DNA of 64,000 nt from Lichenostomus cassidix (lineage: Eukaryota > Chordata > Aves > Passeriformes > Meliphagidae): contig CM039179.1 in the NCBI GenBank assembly GCA_008360975.2, positions 62,782,666-62,846,665 of the forward strand. The letters are read 5' to 3'. The translations under genes were made by a program, and so were the position numbers. The notes under the pieces are model-generated. The model worked only from the letters and a program-made list of their open reading frames with translations. It was not told the DNA's origin and did not search any database. Of the stretch, positions 1 to 53,539 are shown in pieces. The first letter of the stretch is position 1, and each line of letters begins with the position of its first letter.

Positions 1-1231
1 AGAATATGAAAGCTTTGCTACAACTAAACAGTGAATGTTTTGCTGAAATGCAAACATTTTTGTTGTAAGTTTTAAAAACTTGTTTATCAGGTTCCAAAAA
101 GAGGAGAAAAGTAATTATTCATTAGATTGTCATTTGAAAATGTAATCACAGCACAGTAAACAGCCTCCTAAGGAGGCTGATCCAGATTCCATTGAAATCA
201 AAAGAAAAGGCTGCAGTTGGATCTGGTTCTAAGAGCTGAGAAATCTAAGCTGCAGACCTGGCTTCTGTGCCAAAGAAAGAGAGGGAAGGGGAAAGAGAGA
301 GATATCACAAGCACCATAAACAAAATGAATAAAACAGGATCTTAAAATGTATGGTACCATCCAAGTTGCTTGCAAAATCACTCTCTTTGGCAAAAAAGCT
401 GGGAAGGCCACGGTCTAGATTTCACAGGATATTACGGACAGGGTAGTAATATCAGATATATAATAATAATAAAAATACAGTGTTGTAAAATACTACATAC
501 TTTTTTTCTCTTTTGGAAACATACCAGAAAGTTTTCACCTTTAAACTAAACACATGCTCACAGTTTATGGAAAGAAATATTCATTTTTATGGCCTGATCA
601 TGTGAAGAGCCGAGAACCGTTCACTTGCATTATTTCTGAAGTTAGAAGGCACACAGCACATGCAGAGTCAAACTTCTTAATACACTGTTAGATTCAAGTG
701 ACAAAGCAGTCAGTGGAGCTATGGCAGTGTTTCTCCATTGCCAGCCTGTAAAACTAATTAATTCTAAAGGCTGTGGATGAACAGACAACAGACTAGATGA
801 TGATCCACTTGTGTTGGCAGGTAGCTGCAACACTGGAGTTGCTGCACAGGTCCATGATATCAGGAGCACCAGAGTTCCTTGACTGTTAGGCACTAACTTC
901 CAACAGCTGCTTCCATAAAGTTCTCTAAATAGAATGACACCAAAGTCACAATCATAGCTGGTTTCTAACAGTCATTCTTCAGAAGTCTAGGAAGAAAATG
1001 CTTCCCATGACACTGAATGATCTCTTCTGAATGCTGTAAAGATGGTATATATTCACACGTAAAGAAGATGATTGCAGAGAGAAATCTTCCACTCTTGCTG
1101 CAGATTCTTCAGTTGATTGCCAGTCCTTTTTTTGGTTCTATGGTTACATTTTAAAGCCAAAGCTTTGAACTTCCATGTGTGTACATCGTAAAAGTGGTTG
1201 ACAGAGCAACTTCCTCACTCTAACATTTCAG
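1..1231 (+). other. RNASEH2B: RNASEH2B intron (upstream part not in window)
   Basis: This stretch precedes the first recognisable RNASEH2B exon and ends in an acceptor (TAACATTTCAG) at 1221-1231. It is therefore intronic, and its 5' end lies outside the window. I see no exon, transposon or RNA gene in it. It is ordinary AT-rich intron sequence. Confidence 0.75.
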
Positions 1232-1312
1232 AAAAGGAAATTGTCAGATGTCCCTGTGGAACCAGAAGAAGACTATACTAAATTTAACAGCGACAATCTG
1301 AAAACCAAAAAG
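1232..1312 (+). CDS. RNASEH2B: RNASEH2B, penultimate coding exon (partial gene)
   Basis: This exon of 81 nt (27 codons, phase 0 on both sides) encodes part of the C-terminal tail of ribonuclease H2 subunit B. It reads KRKLSDVPVEPEEDYTKFNS followed by DNLKTKK. The acidic EPEEDYTKFN stretch is the recognisable signature of the family. It has a TTTCAG acceptor and an AAAAAG/GTAAGC donor. RNase H2 is a nuclear heterotrimer (A catalytic, B and C structural) that cleaves RNA in RNA:DNA hybrids and removes single ribonucleotides from DNA. The B tail is flexible and rich in Lys and acidic residues, as here. The rest of the gene lies upstream of the window. Identification rests on the sequence of this exon and the next one together. 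Confidence 0.92.
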
Positions 1313-3265
1313 GTAAGCAAGCCTTGCATTCATACATGTTTTGCTAAAGCATAGATTAATATCCAGTATTAGCACAGAGTGCTTAACTTTCTCCTTCAAA
1401 ACATATCACAAAAACTAATACAAAATTATATGATATCTGTAGTTATATCTTCTTGAACTTTTCTTTCAGGTTTAATGTGACTTTGACAGTTTTAATTTCC
1501 TACTCTGAACTGTTCTGTGCTGTTACTGCTGGGCTGTATTTGACCAGTGAATGTCCCAGTGAGCTTTGCAGACTCAGACACACTAGTTAAGACACTCAGC
1601 TAATGTTTGCAAAGCTCTTTGAGATCTTTAGATGAGAAATCCTATGGCTTAGTGATAGCAACTGTTAAATTTCAGTTACTTGAAAAAGAAACGAAGATGG
1701 CAGCATTTACTTAAATTCCAAGGGATACTAGTATGGACAGGCTTTATTTTTACCTAGAAATATTGCTTGTGCACTTACTTATGTCAACTTAATGAAGTTA
1801 AATCAACACAGAACTTACTGATTGCCAGCTCCAACGCATGTTTGGAGGCCAATCCAAATCTGAGTCCAGCGGTGCCTGCCACTGTACTATTCCTGGGAGA
1901 GCAACAGAGATGTGAAAAGAAATAGATCCTTTCTGTGTGTGCCAAAGTTGTGAGGCTTGTACTGGCTTATTTCTCTGAACATTGAAAGAAAATGAATCTT
2001 CTTCCAATCCATGGGGAACCAAAAAGGCCTGCTGTGCTGGTCTTGTGACCTTCAGTCTAATGCTGACTACTCGTTATCCTTTGCAAAGAGAAGCAGCTGG
2101 TGACAGATGCATTCCTTCCTCCCCCCAAACCCCCAGATTTTTTTTGTACTAAGTGCACATTCTAGTTTTGAAGTAAGAGGATTGCTCCCTAAGTGAAGGT
2201 GATAAATAGTTTAAAATATGCATGTTTCTCTCCTTTCCCCCATTATATATCTATGGCTTTTGAACTTAGCATTAAGATAGAAATAAACTGAGGAGAGATT
2301 ATTCATTTTAACATTAAATATGATTTACTTTTGAAATAATGGAGCACACTGATGAGAGAATCTGGGAAAGAAAAGATAGCCCTTGGACTCTGTACAGTAT
2401 ACTACTATTTTTTAAATACTTTGGCCGTGGTTTTGTTTGTAGAGTTACACAGACCATCATACTGTTTTTGCCTATATCCATCCTATCCATAACTATCTAG
2501 CTGATCCCAAGTATTGTAATTGTGAAGTCCTGCAGACTGAGGAGTATCATAAAGAAAGGTCAATACAACGTTTTCTTAATAGGGAAAGCAGCTAGAGATG
2601 TAAAACATAACACTTTAAAATATAAGAAAGAAAATAGGTCAGCTCTATAAAATGTGGCTCATAAAATGTGTTTGAGGTGTAGAAGTCTGGAAAGTTGTCC
2701 CAGTGGCTTCAAAAGTGCTTTGCAAATTTTAGTTACCTTCTTCATTCCTAGTTTTTCCATCTCTTTTCCATTTATTTCACTGTGCATAGAGTCTTTGATA
2801 GTAAATCAGTGTGAATTATTCATCATCTGTGATGCAAGTCTGTAATTCAGCCTGCTGACAGCATAATCATGAGATTGAATCAGAGGGTACAGAATGCATC
2901 TGTTACATTGCATGCATTATTCCTCTTAATGTACACTCAGGGATTATCCCAAAGTAAACGTTTGATTTGGGATGCCTCATTGTGCGGAAAGGAAAGATGC
3001 TTCACCTCTTTGTTCTTGTAGTTGGTTTTCTATCTTTGAGGTTAAGTAATTAATGATAATTATTCTTCAATTTGAATAATCTCAAATTTGTTTTTTAAGG
3101 TTTTTCTCCTACAATTCAAAGCCTACGTATCATTATCTTTACTGCTGTATATTAAAAAAGCAATTCAACTTATTACTTGACTCTTCTGTATTTAGGAGTT
3201 TGTAGCATATGTTCCCCCCTGTGGAGATGCTGCTTAACTGTTTCTGTTTATCATTTCACTCACAG
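1313..3265 (+). other. RNASEH2B: RNASEH2B last intron
   Basis: This intron of 1,953 bp runs from a GTAAGC donor to a CACTCACAG acceptor and joins two phase-0 exons. The sequence is AT-rich. I see no transposon, RNA gene or extra exon in it. The short open frames inside, such as 1798-2022 on the minus strand, have no recognisable content. Confidence 0.85.
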
Positions 3266-3373
3266 GCAAACATCAAGATGTCTGCAGCACAGAAGGCTCT
3301 CGCCAAAGTTGATAAGAGTGGAATGAAATCCATTTCTGCTTTTTTCAGTTCCAAACCTAAAGCATCAAAATAA
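3266..3373 (+). CDS. RNASEH2B: RNASEH2B, last coding exon with PIP-box
   Basis: This exon has 35 codons plus TAA and follows a CACTCACAG acceptor in phase 0. It encodes the extreme C-terminus of RNase H2 subunit B. The segment SAAQKALAKVDKSGMKSI is the conserved tail of the family. It includes MKSISAFF (M20 to F27 of the exon), a PCNA-interacting (PIP-box) type motif with the hydrophobic residue and the paired aromatics in place. In the human protein the equivalent motif lets RNase H2 bind the PCNA clamp at replication and repair sites. The protein ends SSKPKASK, a short basic tail that differs from the human end. No stop or frameshift interrupts either exon, so the gene looks functional here. 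Confidence 0.93.
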   Translation, partial: ANIKMSAAQKALAKVDKSGMKSISAFFSSKPKASK

Positions 3374-20805: not shown

Positions 20806-21203
20806 AGAAAACTCTGGTAAGGCTGATGAGACCCTTTCTTCAGTGCTGTGTCCAGCTCTGGGACCCCCAATATGAGAAGGACGTGGACCTGCTGGAGCAA
20901 GTCCAGAGAAGGGCCATGAACATGATCAGAGGGCTGGAGCACGTCTCCTATGAAGACAGGCTGAGAGAGCAGGGGCTATTCAGCCTGGAGAACAGAAGAC
21001 CTTCAGGCAGCATTCCAGTACCTGAAGAGGGCTTTACAAGAAAGCTGGAAGATGATTTTTTACAAGTGTATATAGTGACATGAAAAGGGGAAATGACTTT
21101 AAACTGAAAGGGGTTTAGTTTAGATTAGATTTTAGGAATAAATTCTTTACTGTGAGGATAGTGAGGTGCTGTCAGGGATTGCCCAGAGAAGCTGTGGATG
21201 CCC
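20806..21203 (+). mobile_element. CR1 LINE, 5' part of an interrupted copy
   Basis: This is a CR1 fragment in + orientation that runs from the end of the reverse-transcriptase region into the 3' part. Its blocks include TGTGTCCAGCTCTGGGACC, TGGACCTGCTGGAGCAAGTC, GATCAGAGGGCTGGAGCACG, GACAGGCTGAGAGAGCAGGG, TTTACTGTGAGGATAGTGAG and GCCCAGAGAAGCTGTGGATG. The copy stops abruptly after GATGCCC at 21203, where an LTR has been inserted. It resumes at 22147. Confidence 0.88.
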
Positions 21204-22146
21204 TGTTGTCCCATCCCGCTGTAAAAAAGGGGAGTTGGGAAGGATTCTTTTTAATAGATTTCTCAGACAAAAAAAAAAAAAGCGCAAACGCGGCAATATT
21301 ATTTCTAAGAACTCTTTATTGATAAAGAAGGATAAGTGTGCGTACCAAAGTGGGATAAAAAAGGGAACAAAGTGGGGAAATGAGAGACAGAGAGTGAAAG
21401 AGAATACCGGACAGATCGTTCCCGATGTACCCTGGGCGCCCCGTTGGCGAGAGCTCAGCAGATGGAGCTGCGAGGAATCTGCGCAGCTCCCGTGGTGGGT
21501 TGGACGCGATTTCCAAACAGCAGCAGCTGCGTGTCGCTTCCTTGGGCGAAGAACAGGAACAGACTGCCGTGGCTACGGGCGCACTCGAGAAGCAGCTGCA
21601 GGCGGTCAGGGTCGGGGCGCGGCGGCTCCGGGCTGGGTGCAGGCAGGGTGCAGGCGGCGGCGGCTCCGTCGGGGAAACAGCGAGCACGAGGTTGTCGCGG
21701 CGACGGACAACCTCGGGGAAGCGGCGAAGCAGGGCAGGACAGGTGCTGACAAGACAGCCAGGAAAGGAGCAGCACAGCAGGAAAGAAAATGCAAGGGGGG
21801 GAGGGGGGGGCAGGGCGCAGAGCTGACCCTCCAGGCGAACCCCCGCTCCAAGAAACCCAAAGAAAACGGCGCCAGGGTTGTGTCGCAGTTAACTGCTTTT
21901 CTGTGCTTGACCCTCCTATAGCGTGATTTCCTGCACATTTTTTCCCGAGCTTCCGGGGATCTGCTCCACCGGCAACGGTGGATTGCTTGCAGACCAGCAG
22001 TGGAAGCTTTCGCTCCCCTGATCGACTGCCAGGCGATCCTCCCAGGGGACAGTGCTCCCAGCACGTGTATAGCCCCTGAAGTAAGTTTTTCACCTCATGT
22101 ATAATATATGTTAAGGCATAAATAAAAATCAGATTGGTGTCTCTCA
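21204..22146 (-). mobile_element. solo LTR of an endogenous retrovirus, inserted in a CR1
   Basis: This 943-bp block lies exactly between the two halves of a CR1. On the minus strand it starts TGAGAGACACC and ends GGGACAACA, the TG...CA ends of retroviral LTRs. A poly(A) signal AATAAA (minus strand, 21315-21320) sits about 110 bp before the 3' end, as expected for R-U5. The centre is very rich in G+C and CpG. No gag, pol or env sequence is present, so it is a solo LTR, the product of recombination between two LTRs. The target-site duplication is unclear: only a short CC or CCT match is visible. The long open frames here (21166-21921 +, 21455-22147 -) result from the GC content. Confidence 0.72.
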
Positions 22147-22303
22147 CCTATCCCTGGAAGTGTTCGAGGCCAGGTTGAATGGGGCCCTGGGCAGCCTGGT
22201 CTGGTGGAAGGTGTCCCTGCCCATGGCAGGGGAGTTGGAACTAAATGATCTTTAAGGTTCCTTCTAACTCCTTACCATTCAGTGACTCTATGATGATTCT
22301 ATG
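22147..22303 (+). mobile_element. CR1 LINE, 3' part of the interrupted copy
   Basis: This is the continuation of the CR1 that stopped at 21203. It resumes with TATCCCTGGAAGTGTTCGAG, then GGCCAGGTTGAATGGGG, AGGTGTCCCTGCCCATGGCA, TTGGAACTAAATGATC and the terminal GACTCTATGATGATTCTATG. Joined across the LTR, the two halves follow the normal CR1 order without loss. This shows that the LTR is the later arrival. Confidence 0.88.
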
Positions 22304-27730: not shown

Positions 27731-29190
27731 CGCCTTTCAAACCAAGGCAGTCAAGCACCGCAAGCAGCATTTCGTGACTTTATTTAATGAGTATTTCTGT
27801 CTGTTCTTGTGGGAGCATGTGCCAGTAATGCACAAAGCAAGTGAAAAAGACTCCATGATGCTCAGTTCTTAAAGTACAGTACAAAAGCATTTTTTCCTCC
27901 TTTCCATAACAACAAGTAAATTACTTTATCTCACAAACTGGGCACTGTTTCTTCTGCAGATAAACCCAGAATTGTTTTGGGTTGTGTGATGTGAAGTGAT
28001 GTGAAGTGATGCCCAGTGTGATTAGGGTGTGAGAACCAGATGAGAGCTCAGCTTTACACAGGGAGCGGAGTGGAGCATCTTCAATGCAGTGTGTCACTGC
28101 TATGACAACTGCAGACCAGACTTTAGGCTCCTGAGGGAAAAGTCCCTCTAACATCAACAGAAATTTTGCCTGGGTGTGGAATGCAGAGTTGGACTCTTTA
28201 TTTGTTCACTAAGGGAGGAAGTAATGCCACAGTAAGAAAGCTGTTCTTGTAAGTTATTTATTGCTAAGTTTAGGGTTGGTTAGGATTTGTGCCAGGTACT
28301 AAATCAATGCAGGTCATGGAAATTTTATTTTTAAGCATTGCTCTTTTGGATGCCCCAAAAAATTGCTTCAGCTGTGAATTATTCTGAAAGACCATGACCA
28401 ATAAAAATGTGCGAATCATAAATCAGAGACAACACGTTCCTGCTGGAGACCCTGAGAATATAAAAATAGGAAGCCAGAATCAGGACTACTAGGAAATATA
28501 TTCCTTTTTCTTCTGCAGATATGGGTAAATGTAAATTCAAAGTCCTTGTTTTCAAGGGCGTTGCCTCAATTATTCCACAAAATCTTCAGATGCCTGCAAA
28601 GATCTCATGTTTATGTGCCCAAGCAACTTCTCTGCATCCTCTATATATATTTTGCCTTCTTCTGTGTGACTCTGTTCTGTGCTTTCCCTTTGCTGGACAT
28701 CCACAGAAAGCCCATATTTGTCAACATATTTATCCCACATTTAGCACTTCTGTAATGCACCAATCTTGCAGAACTCCTAAGCAGCACTAGACAGGACAAG
28801 TCTAAGATGCTTAAGGAATATCTAGATCCTGTGTAGCTCAAATTTCTCCAGGTAGAAGCCTGAGCAGAAAGAGGAGAGCCTGCCAGCAAAAAAGTCCAAA
28901 CACAGAAGCCAATGGATGTTACACCGTTTCCAAGTTATTACCTCAGTACACCCTGTTGCTCTGAGAGGCCTTGAGCCCACGGAAACCTCTCCAGTCAGGG
29001 GAGCACGCTACTGCTGAGAGGTCTGGATCTGTCTGCCAACAATTGGCTCTTGTGTGAGTAAAGCAATTGCTAGGATTTTTACAAGGTGAGGGTTAGGAGA
29101 ATCTTACTCCTCCATTTAAGCACCTGGATTTTAGGTGGTGGGTGGAAATATTAAGTAATGTGAAAATAATTGTGTTCATATGGTATGTGT
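27731..29190. other. intergenic, nothing recognised
   Basis: No supported gene. A 10-bp unit (GTGATGTGAA) is repeated in tandem near 27989-28010. If the guanylate cyclase relic extends further 3' than recognised, its last exon and UTR would fall around here on the minus strand, but I see no clear match. Confidence 0.45.
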
Positions 29191-29454
29191 GGGTGGGTGG
29201 CAGTGTTCACACCTTCACTTCCAGCTTCCCTTGATGTCTCTCTTAGACGTGCTGGATTATCCCCCTGAATCACCTACCTTTTTCCACTGACTCATGTTGA
29301 TTTGACTGATCTTAGGGACATCCTCAAAATGAAATCTCCAAAGTAGACTGCTGTAGCTAAGTCCAAAATTACCCGTTTTGTATGATTGTTCTAACCATAA
29401 GTACTAGGGAAGAAAATACTCAGGTTGGCTCCATCTGCACTTCTTTTTCCCTAC

Positions 29455-29609
29455 CTAAAAGCTGCTGGGCTGAGGTGGGTGCTCCTGGAAGACTGTGACT
29501 CTCTCCAGTAAGCTGCGTTGACAGTGTCTCCACACCAGTAGCCCCTTGACATTTTCTCATCATTAGCCCCAGCCAGCACTGGTCCAGAGCAGATCCCAAC
29601 TCTGATCAG
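29455..29609 (-). pseudogene. GUCY1B2: GUCY1B2 relic: cyclase-domain exon (GPVLAG...DTVN)
   Basis: On the minus strand this 155-nt block reads through 51 codons without a stop. It contains LIRVG, SGPVLAG, EKM, GDTVNAA, RES and HLSPAA in the order of the soluble guanylate cyclase catalytic domain (family: IRVGIHTGPVLAG, GDKMPRYCLFGDTVNTASR, HLSPTA). Both splice sites survive: acceptor CATAACAG at 29610-29617 and donor TTTTAG/GTAGGG at 29455. However, the near-invariant MPRYCLFGD has become MSRGYWCGD and IHTG has become ICSG. In the living enzyme this segment forms part of the GTP-binding site. The exon is open by chance, while its neighbours are broken. Confidence 0.85.
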
Positions 29610-30510
29610 CTGTTATGAATCAAAAAGGAAGTGTGATTCATCATATCAGCTTCTAATTGTCACTATCTAGAATACTTTGTAGTTCTTCTTGAGCAACCAT
29701 GTCCCACAGAAACTCGAAAAGGCTGGTCCCCACTTAGCGTTCTAGGGCCTAAATAACATTGTTCTCCTTTGTAGGAACCTGTGCACTTCCTTGGAGAAAC
29801 AAAGCTATAGCCTTGGGCTAATGATAAGGAGAGTAGTATTTGTAAGGAGAAGACAATTGAGACTGTGGCAGCTTAGTTGTTTTCCTGTCATCTTGTGACT
29901 GTCACAAAGGTGACAGCAATTGGCAGAAGAGACGAAGGGATTACAGCCCCACTGCACCCATGAAAATCATCACTCTGAACATGCCTCCACTGGGCTATTT
30001 TCTCTTCCTCACAACCCAGCATGCTAAAGTCAGCCTTCTGTGTTTATGCAATTAGTGTTATGCTTTTGTAGCTGGCTAATGGAGATCTGTAAAATTGCGT
30101 ATTTTCAATGAGCAGTTTAACATGTCCTTGTGTAAGAAGCTCTTGCAAGCAAGGAGCAAGTGCAAAATAAATCATTTTGTGTCTGTGCACAAGTTGCTAA
30201 ATGACTTTCTGGTTCTCCCTAAGCACAAATACCAATTAAGACAGCGTTTGTTTCTGAGTACTCGTTTCTCTAAATTGTCAGTGAACAGACTACTTGGCTA
30301 TGGTTAAATGCATGTTTTAGTGCATTATTTGATTCTGGACTGCAAAGTTGTTCCTGCTGCAAAATTAGTCCCACATCCTGAATTCAGTATAGCATTCCAC
30401 ATGAATATCAACCTGAAGTGCAGGCATGTTGACATTCACTGGAAGCTGAAGTCCTTATCAAATATCTACTGGTATATAGCACCTGTTTGAGAGCAAGGAT
30501 CGAGTCCTAC

Positions 30511-30651
30511 CTCCCTGATTGGGCTCTTCAGCCATGAGGTTCATGATCTCTTGAAGGCAACTCCCATGCCAAATGCAAGATTGGCTGTTCTTTGTGTATA
30601 GCTAGTGATGGGGACTGTGATGCCTCCAGCCATCATCTCCTATTGCTTCAT
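30511..30651 (-). pseudogene. GUCY1B2: GUCY1B2 relic: cyclase-domain exon (VETIGDAYM...)
   Basis: Read on the minus strand, this block starts after a good acceptor (TCTCCTGCTGTCCAG) and ends at a GGGAG/GTAGGA donor. It needs three frames to follow the family: EAIGD, then MMAGGITVP and QRTANLAFGMG, then QEIMNLMAEEPNQ. In intact beta-2 these correspond to VETIGDAYMVVGGVPVP, QRVANFALGM and KEVMNPVTGEPIQ. A small deletion removes the AY of the GDAYM metal and base-binding loop. A further one-base shift near 30550 leads into a stop at 30541-30543. The exon cannot encode a working cyclase segment. Confidence 0.85.
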
Positions 30652-31192
30652 CTGGACAGCAGGAGATTCTACAGCCAAGTAATGCCCAATCCCTATGACT
30701 CATTGAAGTGAATGGTAAAGCTCCCATTGGGGTGAGATGGACTCAGACAATATCCCAGTCTTAGGATGTGCTAAATACTTGTGTTTCCATTGAAGGCATG
30801 GGTGTCAGCCACTGAAAGGATAGGTAATTATACTTAGCATGGATAAGCAATTTTTTTAATCTAATTTCAAAAATTTCCCAAAGACAAGGTTTTAATTTGG
30901 TGGTTTTGTGGGTTTTTTTTTTTTTATCGATGAGTGAACAGGAAGTTCAAGACATCTCTAAACTCTTATCCCAAAGCATTGGAAAGAGTGAAAGAGTATT
31001 TACAAGAACTGATGTTTGAAGTTCTGAAGGAACTCTGTACACCTCATACTTTCAGCCAGTTTCACTTGCTGTGATGATATCAGGTTCTGTTGGGTCAGAC
31101 AGAAGAAAGCTCATCATAAACCCAACCCAAACAAACAAAATACACACACAAAAACATCACCCACCAAAGAAAACCATAATGGAAACATTTAC

Positions 31193-31338
31193 TTTATAAA
31201 TTCGATGGACATTGCCAAATCAATCAAACTTGGAATACATTAAATTCATCATATCCACCATTTGGAAGTGCTCCCAGACAGAACAGATATTTGTGATTGT
31301 CATAACATCACTGAAGAGTACTGTGCAGGAGTCAAATT
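31193..31338 (-). pseudogene. GUCY1B2: GUCY1B2 relic: first cyclase-domain exon (FSDV)
   Basis: This is the clearest relic. Minus-strand translation gives EFDSCTVLFSDVMTITNIC, then MMNLMYSKFD, a TGA stop (31220-31222, at the Arg of FDRLT) and VHRIYK. Family sequence is EFETCTILFSDVVTFTNIC...NMLNSMYSKFDRLT...VYK. The metal-binding Asp of FSDV is still present. The exon enters in phase 1: the G that ends the previous exon (32313) plus AA makes the Glu codon, exactly as a working gene would splice. It leaves in phase 0 at a TATAAA/GTAAAT donor. The acceptor is CTTCCTCATGAG. Confidence 0.92.
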
Positions 31339-32312
31339 CTCATGAGGAAGAAGTCAGCTCTTAAATGTACATTTCTCCATAAAGGCTTCTATTCTTATTT
31401 GACTAAGTCAGTAATAGACTTTGACAACAGATTCCTGTTACTTGCCAAAATTCTATTAATTGGTTTGATAGCTGAAGGAAAGTTTTCTGTAAGGATAGGA
31501 AAGATTCCCATCTTTCCCTGTTTGGTAGCTGAATTACACTCGTTGAAGTGTGGATATCTCCCTTCAAAGTTTCTTTCAACATCCCAGCCTGAGTATTCTA
31601 ATATCCTCAGCCATATTGGACACAGTTTGGGTCACTTATATTTTGCATCTGTTTATAGACCAGGTTTGCCTGAAGAAGTGTAAGTGCCCAGAGCCCCAGA
31701 GGGGACTTCATGCCAAAGGCATAAATTTGCAGCATTAGCTCCAAGTTCACTGTCACCATTTTATGCAGACACACTGAAGCTCAGAATTCTAACACAAATA
31801 AACACGTGCACAGTGGGCAGTAAATTATTGTGTGCTAAGCAAGAAGCAGTCAGACACCTCTACCTGGAGTGGCTAAAAAGGGCTTGCTTAGCAGCTGTTG
31901 TAAGGGTCTTTGCTGAATTGGTATATTCCAGGTTGAAGATCAAGCAATACATGTGCCAGAAATGCCCTCCTTTCCCTCTATGAGCTGTCTACTTCTACAT
32001 CTACTTCTTCACAACAGGATTCTCTTCTAAAAAGCTTTGTATCAGTGGTACTCAGGCATGAATTTACGATGCAACTCTTCTCACTGGAGTTCCCAGGCAA
32101 GGCCTGTTCTTCATGTGCAGCCATCTGTTCCCCATCATCATAGCTGCAAGTGTCCCTGATGATGCTTGTATGCTCTGGGTGTTGTAATTCATCATGTGGA
32201 GAAAAAGAATACCTTGGAACTGCTCTGGTAAATGCACTGTTACAAAGGGAGCTGCGAAGTTTAAGACATCAGGAGAACCATAAGGAGAGGACAAGGAAGG
32301 AACCTCCAATAC

Positions 32313-32642
32313 CTCCATCCACCTTTTTCCCTTCCTTAAGCTGATTCCTTAAGCTTCCTTAACCTAATGTGTTTTGGCAGCATGGCATACAACAACTTCT
32401 CTGTCTTTTTGGCCTCCAAATTCTTGGACCTCTTCCATTTTTCCTCTCCAGATGGTTTGAAAGCTCTGTCTCTGCCAGGTGCCACTGGTTCATCAGAAGA
32501 TTTCTTGTTGCATCATGAGGTGCAGTGTCAGGGAGTTTCACCTTCAGCTCCTCTAGTTACACCAAACTGCAGAGCTTGAGGGAGAACAAGTGCATCATAC
32601 TTGGATGGACTCCACCCAAATCATTCCGGATTATCCTTGAGA
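32313..32642 (-). pseudogene. GUCY1B2: GUCY1B2 relic: linker/coiled-coil exon (PHDATR...LLYAMLPKH)
   Basis: This is a minus-strand exon of about 330 nt. It follows the soluble guanylate cyclase HNOBA/coiled-coil region through several frames. The pieces in order are MIWVESIQ, then LEELKVKLPDTAPHDATRNL and LAETELSNHLERK, then AKKTEKLLYAMLPKH (LLYAMLPKH codons at 32369-32398), then NQLKEGKKVDG. Family sequence is MIWMESL, DIAPHDTTRDLILLNQQRLAEMELS, KKKTETLLYAMLPEHVANQLKEG. There is an in-frame TAA at 32557-32559 and at least three frameshifts, including a small insertion or duplication after the LPKH codons. The donor GGATGGAG/GTATTG survives at 32313. The 5' edge is approximate. Confidence 0.92.
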
Positions 32643-33970
32643 TAAAAGCATGGGTCAATGACACTATTAGCACACACGTTTTTCTCCTCTACACCTTCCC
32701 AATCCATGGATTAGTGTGGGATAGAAACAAAACAATCTAGCAATGCTTAATATTATTTAGACTCATCTATAAGTACTCATCCCACGACTCTTTCGAAGGA
32801 AATCTGCAATACCAGCCAGTATAAACAAATGAGGAAAGCCTCCTGAACAGGCTGAGGTACAGCTGTGTCTTCTGCTCATCACGCTCTCCCACAGAGAGAG
32901 CTGTACCTCATTCATTGGAGATGCTATACTCTCTGTTTTTTTCATGTCTTAGAAGTAGACGATCAAATCCCTTATGGATCTGGCTGATGCACCTGGCCAC
33001 AGAATAGGAGAAGACCATATCTAGCCATCTAGAAAGAGCTCTGTACACCCAAAAGGCTTTCTAGGAAACAAATCCTATCCTTGCCACAACCCTTTATCTC
33101 TAGTCCCTGCCCTGTGACACAATAAATGCAAGACTTGTTTCGTGGAGGAGAATCAAAAACACTTGGAAGGTTTTCCAGATGTTTTAATAAACAGCTGTCA
33201 TTTTCATGCAGACACAGACAAGATGTTTCAAAAGAAGAACAAAGGTGGAGCTAACATAACTTGTAATGATGTATTAATGAAAAGATTTTTTAATGTGTTC
33301 ATTGGCAACTTCTCTTTGTTCCCACTGAAGTCAGAACTAAAGTTTTTACTGGGAGCTGCCATGACAATGTAAAGAAACAATGAGAAAACCTCATATCATA
33401 TCGGAAAATTACATGTAGGATCTCAGGTGCTTGGAAATGGAGGGATGCTAACAGGAAAAAAAAAATCTCCAGAAAAGCTGATATTCTGTATACCATTTGA
33501 GTTTTTATAAAACATATATTCACAAAATCTTCAGTTGCCCAATTTTTTTGTTTGTTAGGTTTGTGTTGTTTGCTTTTGTTGTGGGATTTTTTTTTTATCT
33601 TCTCCTCTTTCTGATTTCTTCCACAAAGACACAAGCAAAAAGATACTTCTGAGCTTCAGCATGGACTGTGTTTCTCCCTGTCTTAAATTAAATTTTTCCT
33701 TTTGCTTTGACAACAAAGTTGACAATACATTTCTTTTCCTGCTAAAAATGGGGAAAGCAACTGGTAGATGGATGACAGCAAAATATTTATCTAAACAGGC
33801 CCCTGAATTTCATATGCCTGATGTGAACTCTTTAATATTCATATATGCTTGCTTGATACACAGCTGAGGGAATGAAATTTATGAATAAGGATTAAAAAGC
33901 TCTCTTTCATAAGGAATATAATGACACAGTGTGTTTGCAGATATGTGTGAATGGGGAACTAGGAAAGACG

Positions 33971-34078
33971 AGAGGAGAGGGGAGGAGAGGAGAGGAGAGG
34001 AGAGGAGAGGAGAGGAGAGGAGAGGAGAGGAGAGGAGAGGAGAGGAGAGGAGAGGAGAGGAGAGGAGAGGAGAGGAGA
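33971..34078. repeat. (GGAGA)n pentanucleotide microsatellite
   Basis: About 108 bp of nearly perfect GGAGA repeats, roughly 21 units with one early interruption (GAGGGGAGG). The + strand is pure purine and the - strand pure pyrimidine. It lies in the span between the 32.3 kb and 35.3 kb relic exons. It gives the spurious LLSSP-repeat open frame on the minus strand and the GEERR-repeat frame on the + strand. Confidence 0.97.
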
Positions 34079-35289
34079 CTGAATGATGTGCAACCCTATT
34101 TCTTGTTCCCGCTTTGGAAGAAGGGCCTGCTGCTACTATTGTCTTGAGGAAAGATCTCAGAAGACGAATGTTTATATCAGCACAGTTCATGCCACATTGA
34201 GCCAGTTAAGGTAGGGACATCATCCCACAATATAAGGACAATGGTCACTCTAAGTTCCCTCTGTAGTTAAGGGATAAAGACAGGCAATTGAAAAGCTCTG
34301 AACTCTGACCCTCTGAAGAGGATATTCTGGAAGATCTTCCTTTCCCCACTGACTGTAGAGGTGTCCTCAGCCAACCAAACCCTTAAATTCTGTGCTTCAA
34401 TCTCTAACAGATTTGTGACTCCACAGACACCAGAGTTCTGTCAGAGTCAGCCCCTTCCCTTGGGAAACACTAATGATGAAGATGACAGAGCCCCAGTCTC
34501 CCAGCCCTGAAATACATCTCATTTTAGGAATGCTGTCTAAGCTGATTTTCATTCCCCAGGTACATTATTGCAAGCAGCAAGCTGACAATGGGGTGTTCTT
34601 CAGTTTCCAAGACCAGGTTAGAAAGAGTCTGCATCAATTTCATCACAGGCTAGAGTAATTTTTGCCATGTAAGGAGCCAGCCCAGACCTTTTTCTCTGAA
34701 ATAAAGGTTCAGTTTCCTGTTAACCCAAATATACTGGCCTACTGCTTCATCAAACACATACAGGAAGCAAATGCATAGCAGTCTTCTGTCTTCAGCCCAA
34801 AGCTTCTCTGGATAAACAGGATTAAAAATGAGTTACAAGTTCTCTGTAAAAGAACATAATAAGACAAAATAGAGACACTAAGACCATGGAGAGGATTTTG
34901 AGAGGCATGAATGGTGCCAAAACAACCCCCAAATAAACCCAACAAACCTTTCTGAAGGTCTTAGATATCTTTCTGGTTTTTGTAACTTCAGAAACCTTCT
35001 TTATCTGTAATAAACTGGTCCCAGAGCATCAGCTGATTAATAGAAAAATGTTTTTATTTTCCACAAAGCAAAATATCTTAACAAAACTGTTTTTTAAAAA
35101 CTTGTCAAATTTCTTTTATGGGATGATTTTAATGGGAAAATAGAAAATAGTGGCTTATGGTGGTTGTAGTAAGTCCAGAAATCAAGTTTTGTGAAAATGG
35201 TGACAGAAAGAGATCCAGCACATAATAATGTGAACATGTTTTTATTGCTATACAAAACTTCTTTGTGTAACACGGGAGACTGCCTCCCT

Positions 35290-35571
35290 CCAGTGACTCA
35301 TGAGGTGACTCTTTCTTCATTACAAATATTCCCATGAACACAGAAAAGTAAGAGTTGCAGTTCACGGGGCTTGGTAGAAATGGCAGTGTTTTCACTACCA
35401 CAGCCTGTTGAAATTCTGTGGCCGAACAGCAGAATAGTTTGAAAAGAAGGAAAAGAAGCCAAAGACATTCTCCCAAAAACACTGAACTGTAGCACATCTG
35501 GGAATGTATTCAAATACATATTGTACATGAATCCTGGCATGTTCTAGATCAATGGTCCTTGAAACTGGGAC
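35290..35571 (-). pseudogene. GUCY1B2: possible GUCY1B2 relic: HNOBA-domain exon
   Basis: This is a weaker match in the expected position between the two stronger exons. On the minus strand, EYIP (35500-35511), YSAVRPQNFN (35407-35436) and FVMKKE (35309-35326) appear in the order of the family segments KYVP, FSIIHPQVTFN and FVLKTRKE, in two frames with stops between them. Spacing to the last motif is about 20 codons too long. It could be the HNOBA exon after decay, or a chance match. Confidence 0.4.
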
Positions 35572-36973
35572 CTTTCCTTTAGCCAGTGTCCATGTGTGTC
35601 TGTGTGTATATAAACACTAGTGGTGATAGTAGACAGCCATCAGCGGTGCATATCTGAAATCTGAGAGTCACCATTCTGACAAAGAATAAACAGTTTCTTC
35701 CTCTTCATCATCATTCAAGACATCAATGTCCCATCTGACAACAGCTATCAAAGATGTTTTGCATTTTTTCACTTGAGACACTTCTCTGGAAAGCTAACGG
35801 GACCATTCTGATCTCCTCCTCTAGTTGTATAAGCAATCACAGCAATTATATAACTGCTGAAAAACCAATCGCCTGTCAGGACAAATGTACACAAAATAAT
35901 AGAAAGAAACAAAGGGAGATGCAGAATACATATTTTTCCTGAAAAGATAACCCAATGCACCACAAACATGAGTTAAGCAAAAAATCTGTGACAACCAGAA
36001 GAAAATAAACTCACTGCATATCATGGTCTGGCTGCATTTAGACAAGAAAACTTCTCCCACCAAATCCAAGCTCTGCAATCCTTGCATAAATCAATGACAT
36101 CACCTTTGGTGACTCACTGCTTACAATATTTATATCCAGCAGGCTGTCTCCCTCGTGGGAAAGTGTCTGTACTGCTGAGACCCATAACTCATTCTGATCC
36201 TTGTACGGGAGATAAAGAGGATGTTCTCTCACCTTGCCTTAATTTCACACACTCTGCACGATATCCCAGCAGGCTTTCTTTTCTCAATTTCATGACAATG
36301 TTGAACAGATCTTTGTCTCCTGTGAAGCATCAGCTTGTGCTGTCTAGGGAACAGCATAGAGAAGAACATATGTGAGTGTGCACATGTTCCTGTGTACAAC
36401 ATGAATCATAGTAGACTGTTTTAACATGATGCACTTAGATAACATGAAGGCTGAATGATAAGCACTTACTAAACATGAGATGGCAGTGGTGCATGCAAGA
36501 TTCATTTTGCTTCAGTCTGTGACAGGATGATGATGCATTCTTTCATTACATGCTCATACACTTTTTCTCAAATACTCTCTTGCACATTTTTGTTATGTTT
36601 TCCCATTATCTGAGCTGGTCACCCCAGGCTCCCTTTATAGTCTATAAGAAGAAACAGACATTTCTGCAGTGCAGTTCATCTCATTTGAAAATAGATATCC
36701 AAAATATGTCAGCTGAATCACACTTGAGACGTACCCTTCAGACATTTACACCTGTATAAAATACAGTCACTTGCCTTGATTTAGCTCACAGACAACTGTG
36801 TGAATGGCAAGATAAAAGACAATCCAACTCATTCATCCCATCCCTCTTTAAACTTCAAGGCTATAGTGCATTTTATTGCTGAAATATTTCTGGTACTCGA
36901 AAAGAAAGCCAAACTGGCAGAGAAAATTGTAAGCAATTTTCCTCATTTCTGTAAATCGAATGTACCTCATTAC

Positions 36974-37154
36974 CTTTATGAAAGGCTCCATTTTCTGAAT
37001 TTGTGTCTTTTCTTGTTTTTCTCTTTGGGCTGTTAAACTTCTGCAGCACAAGAAATACTACATGCTTCTCTTCCTCTTTGCACTCTTCTTCTTGATTAAA
37101 AATTTCCACTGGCATTCACTGTTGAAGAACTCTGGCAACAGACTCTAGATGTCC
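36974..37154 (-). pseudogene. GUCY1B2: GUCY1B2 relic: exon joining HNOB to the linker
   Basis: The minus strand reads GHLESVAR, then EFFNS, then VEIFNQEEECKEEEKHVVFL and VLQKFNSP. This follows the beta-2 sequence GIIEAVAKDFF, SILDMNEEVERTGKKEHVVFLVVQK. The HVVFLV block is typical of beta-2 rather than beta-1. Two frame breaks (after VAR and after FFNS) are needed to follow the family, and a TGA then precedes the next frame. A donor AAAG/GTAATG is present at 36974. The upstream edge is uncertain. HNOB is the haem and nitric-oxide sensor domain of the enzyme. I did not find its more N-terminal exons with confidence. Confidence 0.8.
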
Positions 37155-37805
37155 TCATTTAAAAGCAGTCATAGCTTCATATTATGTCCTAATGATTAAA
37201 GCAAATTATTCTATGTCAAATCCCATCATTTACAAAAGTTTATTGATGAAACATCTCTTTTCCCTCTGGTTTAACCTACATTTTAGCTCTTACCTAGCAC
37301 ATCAACAGGAAAGTTAAGTATAAAGTGTGCCATATAAGGTAAAAACTATAGCAAGATTTAATAATGATTTATATTCCTACAGCTTTGTAAAACCCAAAGA
37401 ATATTAGTCAAGACATAATGATTCCAGATTTACACCAGAAGAACCAAATTCAACATCTGGATCATAATTTAATCTGGAGTAAAAACTTCAAATAGTGAAG
37501 CTTCTGTGTGCATGTGCTGGGGAGGGGTGGGGGGTGTGTGTGCAAGATTATGTGTGTCTTTCTGAAATGGAAATACCAGGCAGTTTTATTACTCCATTTA
37601 TAAAATCCAGGAAAGCAAGTTGTGTCTCACACACCTAGAATCTATAAACAAAACAATACAGTGTTCATCTGACTCATTAAATGTTTCTGCAATTATTTTC
37701 TGCCTATGGTATTTGTAGAGTAATTGTCATTGCATACACCAGCTGCATAAGCACTACTATTTCGATATGATCAAGTTAAAGTTTTAGGACTAAGAGAAGC
37801 AACTG

Positions 37806-37940
37806 TTAATAATATAATAATATTATAATATAATAATATAATAATATAATAATATAATAATATAATATAATAATATAATATAATAATATAATATAATAAT
37901 ATAAATTATAATATAATATAATATAATATAATAATAATAA
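37806..37940. repeat. (TAATA)n / ATAATA-rich low-complexity array
   Basis: About 135 bp composed only of A and T in mixed 5-bp and 8-bp units (TAATA, ATAATATA). It is an unstable AT microsatellite. It sits just upstream (in the minus-strand sense) of the 37.0 kb relic exon. Confidence 0.95.
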
Positions 37941-37965
37941 CTGGTTATAATAATAACCAGTTATT
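37936..37965. repeat. perfect 13-bp inverted repeat at the end of the AT array
   Basis: AATAACTGGTTAT (37936-37948) and ATAACCAGTTATT (37953-37965) are exact reverse complements with a 4-base loop AATA. It could extrude a hairpin or cruciform at the boundary of the AT array. No terminator or regulatory role is implied in a vertebrate intron or intergenic region. Confidence 0.9.
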
Positions 37966-38288
37966 CCATTCCTGGAGGAGCTGTATACATCTGGTCAGAT
38001 GAATAACTGCAGACTCCCCTTGATCCATTGACTAGATAGAGCTACACCATCCTGGAGCTTAGACTTCTAACTTACATGTGGATATTGACATACAGATGTC
38101 TGAACTTCCTAACAACCTATCATCTCAATATGACAGCAGGGTCTGCCAGGAGGCACTGGGATAGATGTGCTCTCTAAGCCACAGAGAAGGAGCAAAATGT
38201 GTTTTCTTACTGGAATGTGTTACTTGGATCAGTGACATCATCATACGGAGCACAAGTCGTGAAGGTATTTTTGATTCCTGGCTGGGTT

Positions 38289-41200
38289 CTGAGGAATACA
38301 GAGCACAGTGATTCAGGTAAGATTCAGGCAAAATCATCCAATCTAGTTCCCTCTGAAAATGATCCTGCCGGTGATAGGGCTGAATTGCCTGGCTGACCTG
38401 GGAGCCAGAAAGCAGGGCCCAGCATTCTCTAAATGTCTTGATTTTATAAAAGCAATTTCCAAGGAAAAATAAAGAAATTGGATCAATCCCTGTTAAGAGG
38501 TCTTTGGAATGGTAGGCTGAGGGGAATGCAGTGGGCATGCAAGGGTTCCTCCATCCTTTGTCCAGGAGGTAGGATTCCTCAAACAGAAACACAAGTGGAA
38601 AAAATAGCCATGTGAGGAAAGAAAATGTAGTCCTTTAGCCTTATCTCTTTAGATTGTCTTATGTCTTTTATCCTATGTATTTTCAACTCAGGGCAGATCT
38701 TTCTTCTCCTCCCCTGTAGATAAAGATCAGCCGATGCCATAGATTAAAAGCTACACAGAATCATCAATCATTCCTCAGAGCACGTGTGTAGCCTGTGTCC
38801 CTCTGCATTTTCTGCATCTGAGCAACTTCCAGAGGGCCCAGACAGGACCTTGGTGCTGGTGTGTCAGATGCTACAAAAACCTGAGTAAGAAAGACTCTTT
38901 GGCCCAGTGGGAGCAGGGAAAGGCTGAGAATGAAAGAGATAGCATGAGTTTAGAGGAGTGGTTAACACTAAGATGTCAAAAATAGGGTTTGGATTCCCAG
39001 TTTGAAATAAATAAACAAATGTCACTCTTACCTTCCTAGTGAAAGTCCTGATAGAGATAGGTCTTGTCATGATTATTTTCTACCTCATTAATATCAATGG
39101 CAGAAAGCAGCCAGGAGTAGATCCAAACACCTTCTCAGTGCAGCTGCTGGCATTGATTTAATTTTTAATTCTTCCCTGATGACCCTGTAAGCATCAACAA
39201 AGCAGCATGAAAACTACAGAGGGAGAGACAGAGGTCTATTTAGGCTACCTACAGTGTGCTTAAATATATGACTCCTTTCCACCTACAATCAAGAGCTCTG
39301 GATTTGAGCAGCTGTGGGCAGCAGTCAGGCTGAACTGCTCCAAGATATCACACATGTTGCAAAGAGAAGATCTGCAATTCATTTCACCTAGCTTTGGATT
39401 CATGCATGTAGCCAGAGCTAATTGTCTGGAGCCCTTTATGGATTGTGGGAGAAAGGCATTTTGAGAAGGTGATTCATCCTGCCCATGCTACCCCCAGATG
39501 AATATCCTGCATGAATGGCTCTCAGCCTCTGGTGACTGCGCAGGGAGCTGAGCCATGGCTTGTGCTGGATGTGTAAGTCCTTAGCTGGTAAGAGTCATTC
39601 CAGGCAGAGTCACACAGATTGAGGAGGAGCCCATGTGCCCTGGCAAGAAGAGTTCACATGCCTGCATTTTTTAAATATCTAATAGAAAATGCTTTTATCA
39701 GTCACTTTCTCTGCATGCTCTTGTATTTTGGCTGCACCTATCTTTAAATTTTTCTTCATGTTCTCCTGATATCAATGCAAAAAGGCACTACCAGAAAAAT
39801 ACAATTATAAGGGGGGAAGAGGCAGAGAAGGAAAAATAAAACACACTGTGTGCAAAACCATTTCAGAGGCTGAGAGCAGAGAATCAGAGCACAGACAGAA
39901 CAGCCTGAGTGTTTCTGGCGAGTTTGCAGGCACAACACAAGTAAACATCTGAAAGACAAAACTACTATCAGCTCAGCATAGAATGCAAGCTGCCAGATCC
40001 AGAAAAAAATGAGTGTGAGGCCCAACTAAAGCATGTGTATGCATGCTGAAAAGAGCCAGAAAATCTCTACAAATGTCACCATCCACTCTGGTTTGATATA
40101 CGGGCCTCAGAGGCCAAGAACTCGACTCTCAGGTCTTTTTTTGTGCAAACTGTGACATCTCAGACTCACATCAAGAGCTTTCTATATGTTTTGGCTCAAT
40201 ATCTACACCCAGTTATGTTGGTGGAAGGAACTTCAGATTCACACCAACCTAACAGAGTTTATTTTACCATCTGTCTGTGTTTAGTCTTCCTATTAATAAT
40301 TAAGTCAAGCAATGCAGATTGGGATGGAAATTCCTTCCTGAGGAATGAACCTGTATGCTGTGGAAACCACCTAGCAGGGACTGAAACTCTTATTTCAAAA
40401 ATTACTAGTGAGAAGCCTCACTACTCATTTTTACCTAAGTATCATCATCATTAGGCTGTCCATTGCCATGGGCCTGTTATTTAAGATTTCTGCTGAACAA
40501 GAACGTGCCCCAAAAGTACTGGGCTCAGTTAATAACATGCTATGAACTCACTGAGGATTTTTTTGAGCTATAAATGTACTTTCTGTGGTCTGTTAATGAA
40601 ATCATACTTCCTGTCAATGAATCAGGGCTGTGGAGAGGCAAGTCTCATGAGTTTCCCAGTGGAGTATTTCCCAGCCCATGCCACAGCACAGGGTGAGTTG
40701 CACAGAGTCCTCTTCCCTGGCTCGGGAAGTTCTTCCAGTCAAGGCCATCTCCCTCAAAGGATTGTTGGCATTTGGTGTGGCACTGGTTCACAGCTTTCCT
40801 CCACCCAGGAGAGGGTGGAGGGTCACCACTGAGCCAAGTGGGTCTCTGTCAGCTGTTTGCTGCCTTCTGACACAGGTTGTCCAAATGAACAAGTCTGTTT
40901 TATGACAGTCAACACATGAAATCCCAGAGAGGAGAGGTAAACCTGGCAATAGGTAAAGGCATTATTAATCTCATGTGCAAATGAATCTGTCACCACTGAT
41001 GTGAGATGTCTGCCTCTTCGGGGTTCTTTCCTGATTTACATTGAGCACAAGCCATGCAACTTCTATGGGGATATGACTCAGCACTGAATTTTGGCACAGG
41101 CTGCTCAGAATTAATTATAATTGTGAAGTGCAGGGCTGTTGGGGCCTCAATTCTATTGATAATTCTTCTCACCATGTAATCAGATATTAACCCCCTTTGA

Positions 41201-44200
41201 CTCCATTTTAAAAATCCTCATTTGGACCAGTGTTTCTCTTCTGGAGGATAAAATACTTCAGTTTTTTTCACATCTCTCTTTGTCAAAAGTCTCTATAATA
41301 AGAGATTTCAGACAGGAATTGGTAAATCCATACTAAAGGAAGGGAAGGCAGTAACATATTGTACCTCATGGAATAAAATGGGAAAAACAGAGCTCATAAA
41401 ATACTGGGTAAAGCATGATGGCAAGCCCCTAAAAAAACCAACAGTGTCCTTATTTTTTAATAGTTCCGCTCATTTTGACCCCCACTCCTAAACCCTTCAC
41501 ATCGATAATTCAAGTTTCCACAAAAAAACCAGTAAATTTTGAAACAGGAGTGTGACTAAAGTTGCAAGAAAATAAACTCTGGTCAATTTGAATCCTTTTA
41601 GAAACAATATAGCCAAACTATTGACAGCATCAAAAGAGGAAATTAATGATCTCATACAAGATTTGAGCAGAAGGCAACTGGTTTTTTTTTGGAAAACCAC
41701 TCAACAATTGGCATTTTTATCTGACTTCCAAAGCTTGCTGTTGAATTTTTGTTCTCTCACTGCATATTTTCATGTTAAGCAGTGATTCTGGAAGAAGCTC
41801 ATCAGGGTTAGACTTTCTGCTTGCAGCTTCTGCTCTCTGCTCTTTGCAGCAACTGAGTTGCTCCTGCTTGTTACTGTTCTGGCACAGCAGATGTGAGTTT
41901 CTTCTTCATGTCTTTTTTTTTTTTTTTCCAATAGTACATCAGTTTTGAATGCCTCTTGCAAGAGCCCTCAGACAAACATGTGTGAAGAGCAGCAGCATTT
42001 CTCAAATTCAGACAGCCTTCATAAAAATTCTGTTTTTGTGAGAACTTTGAGGAGCATTGTCAACAAATTCTTGGGTCTCAGATAAAATGGGAAGATCAGT
42101 AACAACCATAGCCCTTCAGGAAGTGAGCAGCGAGGGCTGCAGAAATCTGACAGAGGTGTGGGACAGTTCTTTCTCTCAGAATTACACCACTCAAGCCTTA
42201 AAGTTTGTAGGCTTAGAGGCAGACAGACTGGCCTAATTCTGGACTTCTCGTGAGTCTAATTTAATTCCTAGAAGTGGAGCTGTGTTTGCTCAAGCTTGGC
42301 TCCAGACCAGCTTTTCCAGAAGCAGTCAGGCACCAGTGCATTTGTCAGAGTCACTTTACTCCCACTGATGCTAGTTACGAGCCTTTCGAAAATCCCACTA
42401 AGGGTGACTGCAAATCTTGCCCCAGGTGTACTCACTTGGGTTTATTCAACTGTAATTACAGGTCAGCTCTGCTTGCACTGGAGCCCTTCCACCAACTCCT
42501 TGCTTTCCTGGCACAGCAATGACCTATATTGCTGATTTGAGGGCAGTAAAATTAATTGTGTATATTGGAAACTGAGAAGTGAAGGGTAAGGATGCTATGA
42601 TTCAGTTCTCTCAGTGAAGTGATACTAAAGCTAGCTCTAATTTAGGAACAGTGTGTTTATTCCTGCTCAAACCCCTTCTCCCCTTGCTGTTCCACATATA
42701 AATACCTGAAGGTGATGGCACTGTGTTGAGCAGCTAAAAAAGGACACAGTGTGGCATCAAACACCACCAAGCACAGACTGAGAGCCTGCATGTGAGCAGT
42801 GCCAGTGCTTATGGGACTTATTAATTCAGGGAATCTTATTAGTCTGAATGTTTTGAGACCACAGAGCCATCTAAATCTGCCATTGCTGTCTTATAATCAT
42901 AAGCCATGCAAAGACCTATTCCTGTTTTATTTTCCTGTAAATTAGTATTTTGGCATTAAAAAAAAAATTCTAGAAGTTTAGCATGCATGCCCTAAATATA
43001 AACACACCCCTTGAAGACACAGCAGCAGCTGATGAGGGAGCAGGTTAGATTTTTGACTAACCAAACTGCTTGGATTAGCAGATTCTGGAATAACAGCATT
43101 ATAGATCCCAAGAAGCTGGACACCTCGTCTATTGATTCTCCTGAGCCTTCGAAGAAACTCCAGAATGAGGTAAGAATCCTTAGCTCAGGCCTATCTCAAG
43201 ATTGAACTTCTGAATCTTAAATTCCTCTACTTATTATTTTAAATCCATCTTTGTATCTTCTGTACCTTAGAGTGCATTATTACTGGTGATGACATTACTT
43301 TGTCCATTTGTTTCCAGACACAGTCAAAGGCAAGTGGTCACCATTTCAGACATGATTTACTGAGGTCTCCATGTCCCCTATGATGTCATGGCTATTTATA
43401 TCCTAAGGAAATCATCTCTCTGGAAAAGTAAACTCATTTAAAGAAATAATGTTGATTGGAAACTGCCAAACAACTGCCTGGGAAATAAGTGAATTATAAG
43501 TGAATAACAAATACACACACTCACTGTCTCTTGATGAAGCAGGACAAAACTTCCCTTTTACTTTCATCCTCAGTTCTCTTGTTCACAGAAATAGGAAGGC
43601 TGTGGAATAGCTAGTAATGAACTGCCACCGTGTGGCCAAGGCACAGTTTTAGCTATATTTCTAGAAATCTTCAAGAGCTGATGCTCTAAGTGACAGTCCC
43701 CAGCACCTACTAGTGAAAGTTTCATGTTCATTCACACATTTTATTTGGGTGTCACATGCAGTGCTTCCCTATCAGTGCCCATAAACTTCTTGGTAAAGCC
43801 TTGCTCCCTTCTCAATCTCACTTTAATAAAAGGGTGGAACACATCACTTTTAATTCCATAAATTCTTTTTATATTTTCTCTAATAGGTTACCTCATCTTC
43901 TGTGAGGAGTCAAGGTATCATAATCACTGAGCCATTCAGGTGGTGATGCCTGGTCTTGCCTTGTAAAAGGTGGACAATATTTTAATATGACAAGCCTATT
44001 AGTAGCAAACTTGTCACCATGCACTTAATTTCTGCTAATCAAATAACAGGCTTTAGCTTCTGCTTCTCAGTCTGGTCTGAAGCAACTGGGCTCGTTTGTC
44101 ATTATTTGCCCTCAAAATTCCTTCAGAACATGTTTTTCTACCTGTTAAACTCACAAGAGATAGAGTCATTCCTCTGATTTTATGCAGCTTGGTTTCTCTT

Positions 44201-48311: not shown

Positions 48312-52777
<4,466 letters not shown>

Positions 52778-53191
52778 CTTTGAAGACTCTTTGGAAGGAA
52801 GTGGAAGAAATGACTTTTTTCCAGTTTTGGATGATGTTGTGGATGCTGGAGAATTTGCAGCCATATGCATGGATTTCAACTTATTGATGTTGTCAAGATA
52901 TTTTTTCCTCAAGGCTAACAGATCCTGTAGGTACTTCAAGCAGTCCTGAGTCTTAGAGTACATCCAGTCTCTGTCTTCCTCTTTTGGCTGAAAGCAAGAG
53001 TCGATGCTGCTTGTACTTCTGCACTTTTTTAGTGGTTCACTAACTTTTTCCTGCTCAGCTCCAAGGACATACATAGAAGTGCTGCGGATCAGTCTCACTG
53101 CAGAACCTGTACCATCACAGTACGGAATGTCATCCGTCACATTTCTTCGCTGGAAGTTGGGGTGAAATATAGAATGGATTTTTTTTAACAT
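52778..53191 (-). CDS. C13orf42: C13orf42 homologue, first coding exon
   Basis: This exon has 138 codons from the ATG at 53189-53191 to a phase-0 donor (TCAAAG/GTAATA). It starts MLKKIHSIFHPNFQRRNVTD and continues with AVRLIRSTSMYVLG, LKKCRSTSSIDSCF and DRDWMYSKTQDCLKYLQDLL, ALRKKYL. The middle LIRSTSMYVLG and CRSTSSIDS blocks contain Arg-x-x-Ser patterns that could be kinase sites. The DWMYSKTQDCLKYLQDLLAL block is predicted helical or coiled-coil. No signal peptide or membrane span is visible. I chose this start because it is the first ATG and the homologous human protein, as I recall, also begins with a KKIHSIF-type sequence. The predicted whole protein has 267 residues and its function is unknown. 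Confidence 0.8.
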
Positions 53192-53539
53192 AGTGTGGCA
53201 CTTCCTCCCCTCTATACTTCTTCTCTTCCAGCTCCTTAATTAACACTAGATCTGGTAATCAGCAGCTGTTACCTTTGCCTTCAGCGGACAAAAAAAATTG
53301 CCACTTACTGTAATGAGGAGAAAAAAGAAGCCTATGGCTGCACCGCTTGTTTTCAGTCTAACACATTGTGAGAAGCATCATGGTAATGCAGAAACGTCTT
53401 TTCTATTTCATTTGTGTCAGTGAAAGAGCTTTGTCCTTTCCTCGGTTTAAAATATAGTTGAGGAGGTCAAATATCATGCTTTGACCTTTTTTTTGGCATC
53501 TGGTCCCCTTAGAAAACATCAGCATGGAGGCAGGAATTC

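Follow-up and report, generated by a model that had tools for sequence, protein, structure and literature searches.

The stretch analysed here (the window) comprises 64 000 nucleotides of Lichenostomus cassidix, positions 62782666-62846665 of contig C1, taken from a single assembly and containing zero N. Its minus strand carries, between 41.3 and 29.4 kb, remnants of no fewer than eight exons, in collinear order, of GUCY1B2, the gene for the beta-2 subunit of soluble guanylate cyclase (sGC). The remnants are spread over ~12 kb with their introns kept and bear disabling lesions, and the feature is an ancient, non-processed GUCY1B2 pseudogene that decayed in place. RNASEH2B lies tail-to-tail with it on the plus strand. 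The same genome carries a second beta-2-type gene, intact, on contig C12.

The remnants were aligned to a rat beta-2 reference with a purpose-written protein-to-DNA aligner in which frame changes, stops and GT-AG introns are permitted. The minus strand from 43 to 27 kb gave a score of 757, against 138-178 for 13 controls (one each on the plus strand, on the reversed sequence and with the reversed protein, six on stretches elsewhere and four with shuffled proteins). The identity as beta-2 proposed in an earlier note, which was made from the letters alone, therefore holds, since the same remnants scored lower with human beta-1 (268), Manduca beta-1 (269), human alpha-1 (195) and receptor cyclases. 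When 22 overlapping beta-2 segments were tested singly, 11 exceeded all 20 nulls. The five minus-strand blocks of the earlier note were found where it had placed them and in the order it had given, and tblastn with beta-2 added pieces at 41.33, 34.83 and 33.89 kb; three exons, at 41332-41256, 34826-34740 and 33863-33648, are absent from its list. Pfam searches with five single remnant pieces gave Guanylate_cyc at 31223-31339 (-) with an E-value of 2.7e-6 and, under the curated cut-off, Guanylate_cyc at 29454-29612 (-; 2e-4) and HNOBA at 32362-32556 (-; 0.006), leaving two of the five without a matching family.

In-frame stops occupy three of the 421 aligned codons, the two reported earlier in exons E and F and a third in exon D (Table 1). 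The several frameshifts of the earlier note became 18 frame changes needed by the alignment across the eight exons, some of them possibly compensating pairs; six fall in exon E. By eye, the remaining splice sites are mostly AG/GT, as had been claimed, and the GT of the donor after exon D (33648) is apparently destroyed. The exon boundaries, also read by eye, match those of the intact C12 gene, and exon A directly follows an AG acceptor without its own ATG, as in the C12 gene. With introns present, a processed retrocopy is ruled out, in agreement with the earlier proposal of a gene that died in place. A functional sGC would need an open frame that spans the H-NOX, HNOBA and cyclase domains, and the window holds none: the stops, the frame changes and the missing haem domain all stand against one.

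The bulk of the haem domain (rat residues ~25-155, where the haem ligand lies) is unrecognisable above the nulls, the exception being a weak trace at 38.23 kb. In a search restricted to 41255-37200, nulls did equally well in 1/163 cases with the rat protein and 0/163 with the C12 protein; in the wider segment scan this trace did not beat the nulls (z 1.2), and a fold of 38225-38335 gave nothing further. The linker (rat residues ~187-250) and the part past residue 612 are likewise unrecognisable above the nulls. A possible C-terminal exon was placed by alignment, and a test on 29440-28000 put the best match at 28582, with nulls equal in 8/171 (rat) and 20/171 (C12) cases. Weak blocks at 40.2-38.6, 36.5 and 28.6-27.2 kb were excluded from the exon count, only the 38.23 kb trace being suggestive.

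Table 1. Positions of the pseudogene remnants and other features in the window (residues are those of the rat beta-2 reference unless named otherwise; z, segment z score)
Feature	Position	Strand	Residues	Remarks
psiGUCY1B2 exon A	41256..41332	-	2-26	haem domain start; tblastn, z 15.3
psiGUCY1B2 possible haem-domain exon trace	38231..38320	-	27-57	weak; upper boundary approximate
psiGUCY1B2 exon B	36990..37154	-	145-204	HVVFLV block; z 6.6 (residues 155-190)
psiGUCY1B2 exon C	34740..34826	-	254-283	tblastn, z 12.0
psiGUCY1B2 exon D	33648..33863	-	283-354	TGA 33810-33812; z 9.4, 4.0
psiGUCY1B2 exon E	32311..32654	-	349-462	TAA 32557-32559; z 6.9, 34.7, 11.5
psiGUCY1B2 exon F	31190..31339	-	463-512	TGA 31220-31222; tblastn E 2e-14, z 31.3
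psiGUCY1B2 exon G	30502..30636	-	520-565	z 17.2; acceptor ~15 bases upstream
psiGUCY1B2 exon H	29454..29606	-	561-612	GDTVN block; z 29.4
Possible C-terminal exon	28441..28559	-		alignment only; not significant
RNASEH2B exon	1229..1321	+	RNASEH2B 247-277	C1:62783894-62783986; 61% identity, E 0.007
RNASEH2B last exon found	3263..3364	+	RNASEH2B 274-307	C1:62785928-62786029; 71% identity, E 1.3e-4
199-aa open frame	52640..53239	-		no Pfam family

Searches of the own genome spanned 1.10 Gb in 514 contigs, of which C1 accounts for 115.3 Mb. A search with HNOBA gave 15 matches, among them two paired genes on C6 that score as alpha-1 and beta-1, an alpha-type gene at C1:73 Mb and a gene at C12:16411730-16425323 (-), beyond the window. 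This C12 gene scores 2174 with beta-2, 954 with human beta-1 and 641 with alpha-1. It was rebuilt as 14 coding exons following an ATG exon that was not located, and its open frame runs for 742 codons before ending in a stop; 12 of the 13 internal donors are GT and one is GC, while all 14 acceptors are AG. The protein contains HNOB (5e-54), HNOBA (4e-47) and Guanylate_cyc (1e-72) domains and carries LDALH, the context of the haem ligand, and the YYSDR motif. With such a gene in the genome, the loss of a nitric-oxide receptor subunit is not supported in the form in which the earlier note had put it forward. No third beta-2 copy was seen among the best 80 cyclase-domain matches (mostly unassigned) and the 15 HNOBA matches, the weaker HNOBA matches on C23, C68, C1:85.3 Mb and C5 being left aside. 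Separately, C68 carries mirror-image sets of three cyclase-domain exons each, at 1008531-1011678 (+) and 1059184-1062831 (-). Their scores are the same pair by pair, a pattern that a recent inverted duplication or a duplicate arising in the assembly would give.

The relation of the two genes was assessed over the 416 codons common to the pseudogene, rat beta-2 and the C12 gene. Identical residues number 224 between pseudogene and rat, 201 between pseudogene and C12, and 300 between rat and C12. Rat and C12 differ at 116 sites; there the pseudogene agrees with rat 36 times and with C12 13 times (one-sided binomial, 0.0007), and seven of the eight exons lean toward rat, with one tied. Fourfold sites agree between the pseudogene and the C12 gene in only 23 of 78 cases, near the chance expectation of 0.24, so the split between the two must be old. 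Maximum likelihood joined the pseudogene and rat in a clade with ultrafast bootstrap (UFBoot) values of 96 (407 columns) and 97 (full alignment). The observed likelihood gap was reached in 1/60 and 0/60 simulations under the alternative placements and in 48/60 under the favoured tree. The fourfold sites, the diagnostic residues and the simulations rule out the pseudogene as a recent duplicate of the C12 gene. The earlier note had named an intact beta-2 gene elsewhere, with the window copy as its duplicate, as what would overturn its reading; the intact gene exists, but the window copy is no late duplicate of it. The two genes look like ancient sisters and, judged by position and sequence together, the window copy is the GUCY1B2 orthologue.

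RNASEH2B, named as a neighbour in the earlier note, was recovered on one flank as seven collinear genome-search matches (E 7e-8 to 0.14), two of them inside the window. On the other side, ~17 kb past the window end, an exon resembling FAM124A exon 1 was found at C1:62863905-62863949 (a 15-residue match). In cattle, a single 660-kb deletion is described in the text available from PMC3879169 as taking in RNASEH2B, GUCY1B2 and part of FAM124A. Taken with the RNASEH2B and FAM124A-like flanks, this gene order argues that the window position is the GUCY1B2 locus.

The C12 gene lies between DOCK10, with exons at 16.382-16.385 Mb, and CUL3, whose exon 1 is at 16447148 (22/22 residues) and whose 3' exons are at 16.500-16.501 Mb. 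A FAM124 gene follows at 16.512 Mb (FAM124A as query, E 3e-65; Pfam FAM124, 1e-102), which we infer from its place to be FAM124B. A FAM124-like scrap at L037 2063-2122 (E 0.097) was judged to be chance once a full FAM124 exon was found ~10 kb further on. Together with the FAM124A-like exon on C1, this puts FAM124 genes near both beta-2 genes. Duplicated neighbours are thus present at both sites through one pair, FAM124, for which the C1 side is thin.

Where rat and C12 share a residue, the pseudogene retains 188 of 300, and in a neutral simulation this retention fits ~0.20-0.25 substitutions per site. With bird rates that we take to be 2-3e-9 per site per year, this suggests that GUCY1B2 died ~65-125 million years ago. 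At the fitted divergence the simulation expects 5.6-6.8 stops per 416 codons, compared with the three seen in 421; with fewer stops than simulated, the age may be too high, or constraint may have weakened by degrees. Exons that have decayed past alignment pull the estimate the opposite way.

Several further features of the window and pseudogene were recorded. A (CCTCT)n pentamer run at ~33970-34075 and an AT-rich, (TTATA)-like run at 37800-37960 lie between the pseudogene exons. An open frame at 20778-21083 (+) has a motif like that of the terminal part of CR1-type reverse transcriptases and matched no Pfam family. Long overlapping open frames (259 aa on the plus strand, 230 aa on the minus strand) at 21142-22147 perhaps mark a CpG island. 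The 199-aa open frame of Table 1 is a putative exon of C13orf42.

A reciprocal loss of two ancient beta-2 sisters is the account we favour, and we hold it to be quite likely. An early vertebrate beta-2 gene would have been doubled, most likely in the two rounds (2R) of whole-genome duplications, leaving one sister beside RNASEH2B and FAM124A and a second, not far from FAM124B, in the interval from DOCK10 to CUL3. Rodents would have retained the RNASEH2B-side sister as Gucy1b2, while in the lineage of the present genome that sister decayed and the DOCK10-CUL3 sister stayed intact. The second sister would be absent from mammals, and the C12 gene would be functional, would have taken over and would be spread among birds. 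Given the intact C12 sister, one type of sensor has probably been exchanged for another rather than lost outright. The wider statement, in which we place somewhat less confidence while still thinking it the better bet, is that early vertebrates had two beta-2 cyclases, of which mammals kept the RNASEH2B-side gene and this genome, perhaps birds generally, the DOCK10-CUL3 gene, so that avian 'GUCY1B2' would be a hidden paralogue.

Several points weigh against these proposals. The tree and simulations place the duplication before the bird-mammal split, a dating for which the approximately unbiased (AU) tests alone are not significant, leaving the other placements unrejected (p ~0.096 and 0.052). 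The flank opposite RNASEH2B is probably FAM124A, a name drawn from a match of 15 residues, and no Pfam family was matched by the open frame around that exon. With the purpose-written aligner, RNASEH2B scored 195 on the plus strand at 1-27500 and 112-142 elsewhere. The rat beta-2 reference may itself contain residue errors; it agrees by eye with the mouse primer pair printed in an excerpt of PMC4480006, and with sGC structures. GUCY1B2 is termed highly conserved in vertebrates in part of PMC3879169, and a table of chicken fat RNA-seq results in PMC4596860 names GUCY1B2 as regulated; in each, either of the two avian genes may be meant. In the part of the gucy1b2 literature covered, including papers on birds and paralogues, no avian pseudogene or second avian gene is reported, which does not prove that none has been published.

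That the genome has simply lost its only beta-2 subunit, in parallel with human, would fit the dead RNASEH2B-side gene and the naming of human GUCY1B2 as a pseudogene (in the available parts of PMC7555810 and PMC3879169); we regard it as very improbable, its strong form being already refuted by the open frame and three domains of the C12 gene, unless that gene should prove silent or non-functional. Somewhat less remote, though still unlikely, is a move within birds or sauropsids, in which a copy of GUCY1B2 arrived at the DOCK10-CUL3 site and the old copy then died. Only one copy is intact, the exon boundaries are common to both, and the AU results are compatible with such a placement. The near-chance fourfold sites run counter to a move of this kind, as do the diagnostic residues, tree and simulations that place the pseudogene with rat, and a single-gene move leaves the FAM124 genes near both sites unexplained. 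Nor is the C12 copy a retrocopy, since it carries introns. That an intact gene looks dead through errors of assembly, which a single assembly might invite, or of sequencing, which the earlier note had allowed for, can hardly be credited: the eight exons bear three stops and 18 frame changes, and with a lost donor these lesions are too many, only 188 of the 300 residues shared by rat and C12 are kept, and the haem domain is mostly missing although the window has no N.

Should birds carry the other sister under reciprocal loss, gene names would conceal a paralogue swap, and whoever carried the olfactory or low-oxygen role over from rodents to birds would be relying on a swapped gene. The swap, if true, would show by nature's own experiment whether the two beta-2 cyclases can stand in for each other as gas sensors, and a one-species story of decay would become a case in which reciprocal loss of ohnologues can be tested.

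The human GUCY1B2 pseudogene shares both the gene and the RNASEH2B-GUCY1B2-FAM124A neighbourhood with the window copy. Passages of PMC7555810 list a human pseudogene, loss in gorilla and no orthology in rabbit, with chimpanzee and bonobo among the keepers, and PMC3879169, in the part available, calls the gene apparently pseudogenised in humans. Because chimpanzee and bonobo keep the gene, its loss in human has to be far more recent. Unlike the human case, the window copy has a haem domain that is mostly gone, and a second beta-2-type gene is intact in the same genome. The repeated loss claimed by the earlier note survives in a narrower sense, as losses of this gene in human and gorilla (excerpts of PMC7555810) plus a separate bird case; as the loss of a receptor it is not supported. 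MOXD2 is likewise an olfaction-linked gene lost in birds, in 38 of 57 species and inactive in all passerines sampled (PMC4830563, in excerpt), but it encodes an unrelated enzyme, and the excerpt mentions no intact ancient sister taking over. GUCY1B1 has a three-domain architecture like that of beta-2 and lies in this genome at C6:29.75-29.77 Mb (score 2362). Mouse Gucy1b2 marks some of the Trpc2+ olfactory neurons (PMC4480006, in the part seen) and is reported, together with TRPC2, to mediate calcium responses to low oxygen, its own role as an oxygen receptor being unclear (text of PMC12755159 citing Bleymehl 2016); a co-loss with TRPC2 was considered here and dropped as unproven. Rodent Gucy1b2, the closest match among the references used and the likely orthologue of the window copy, is intact and expressed in rodents and dead in this bird.

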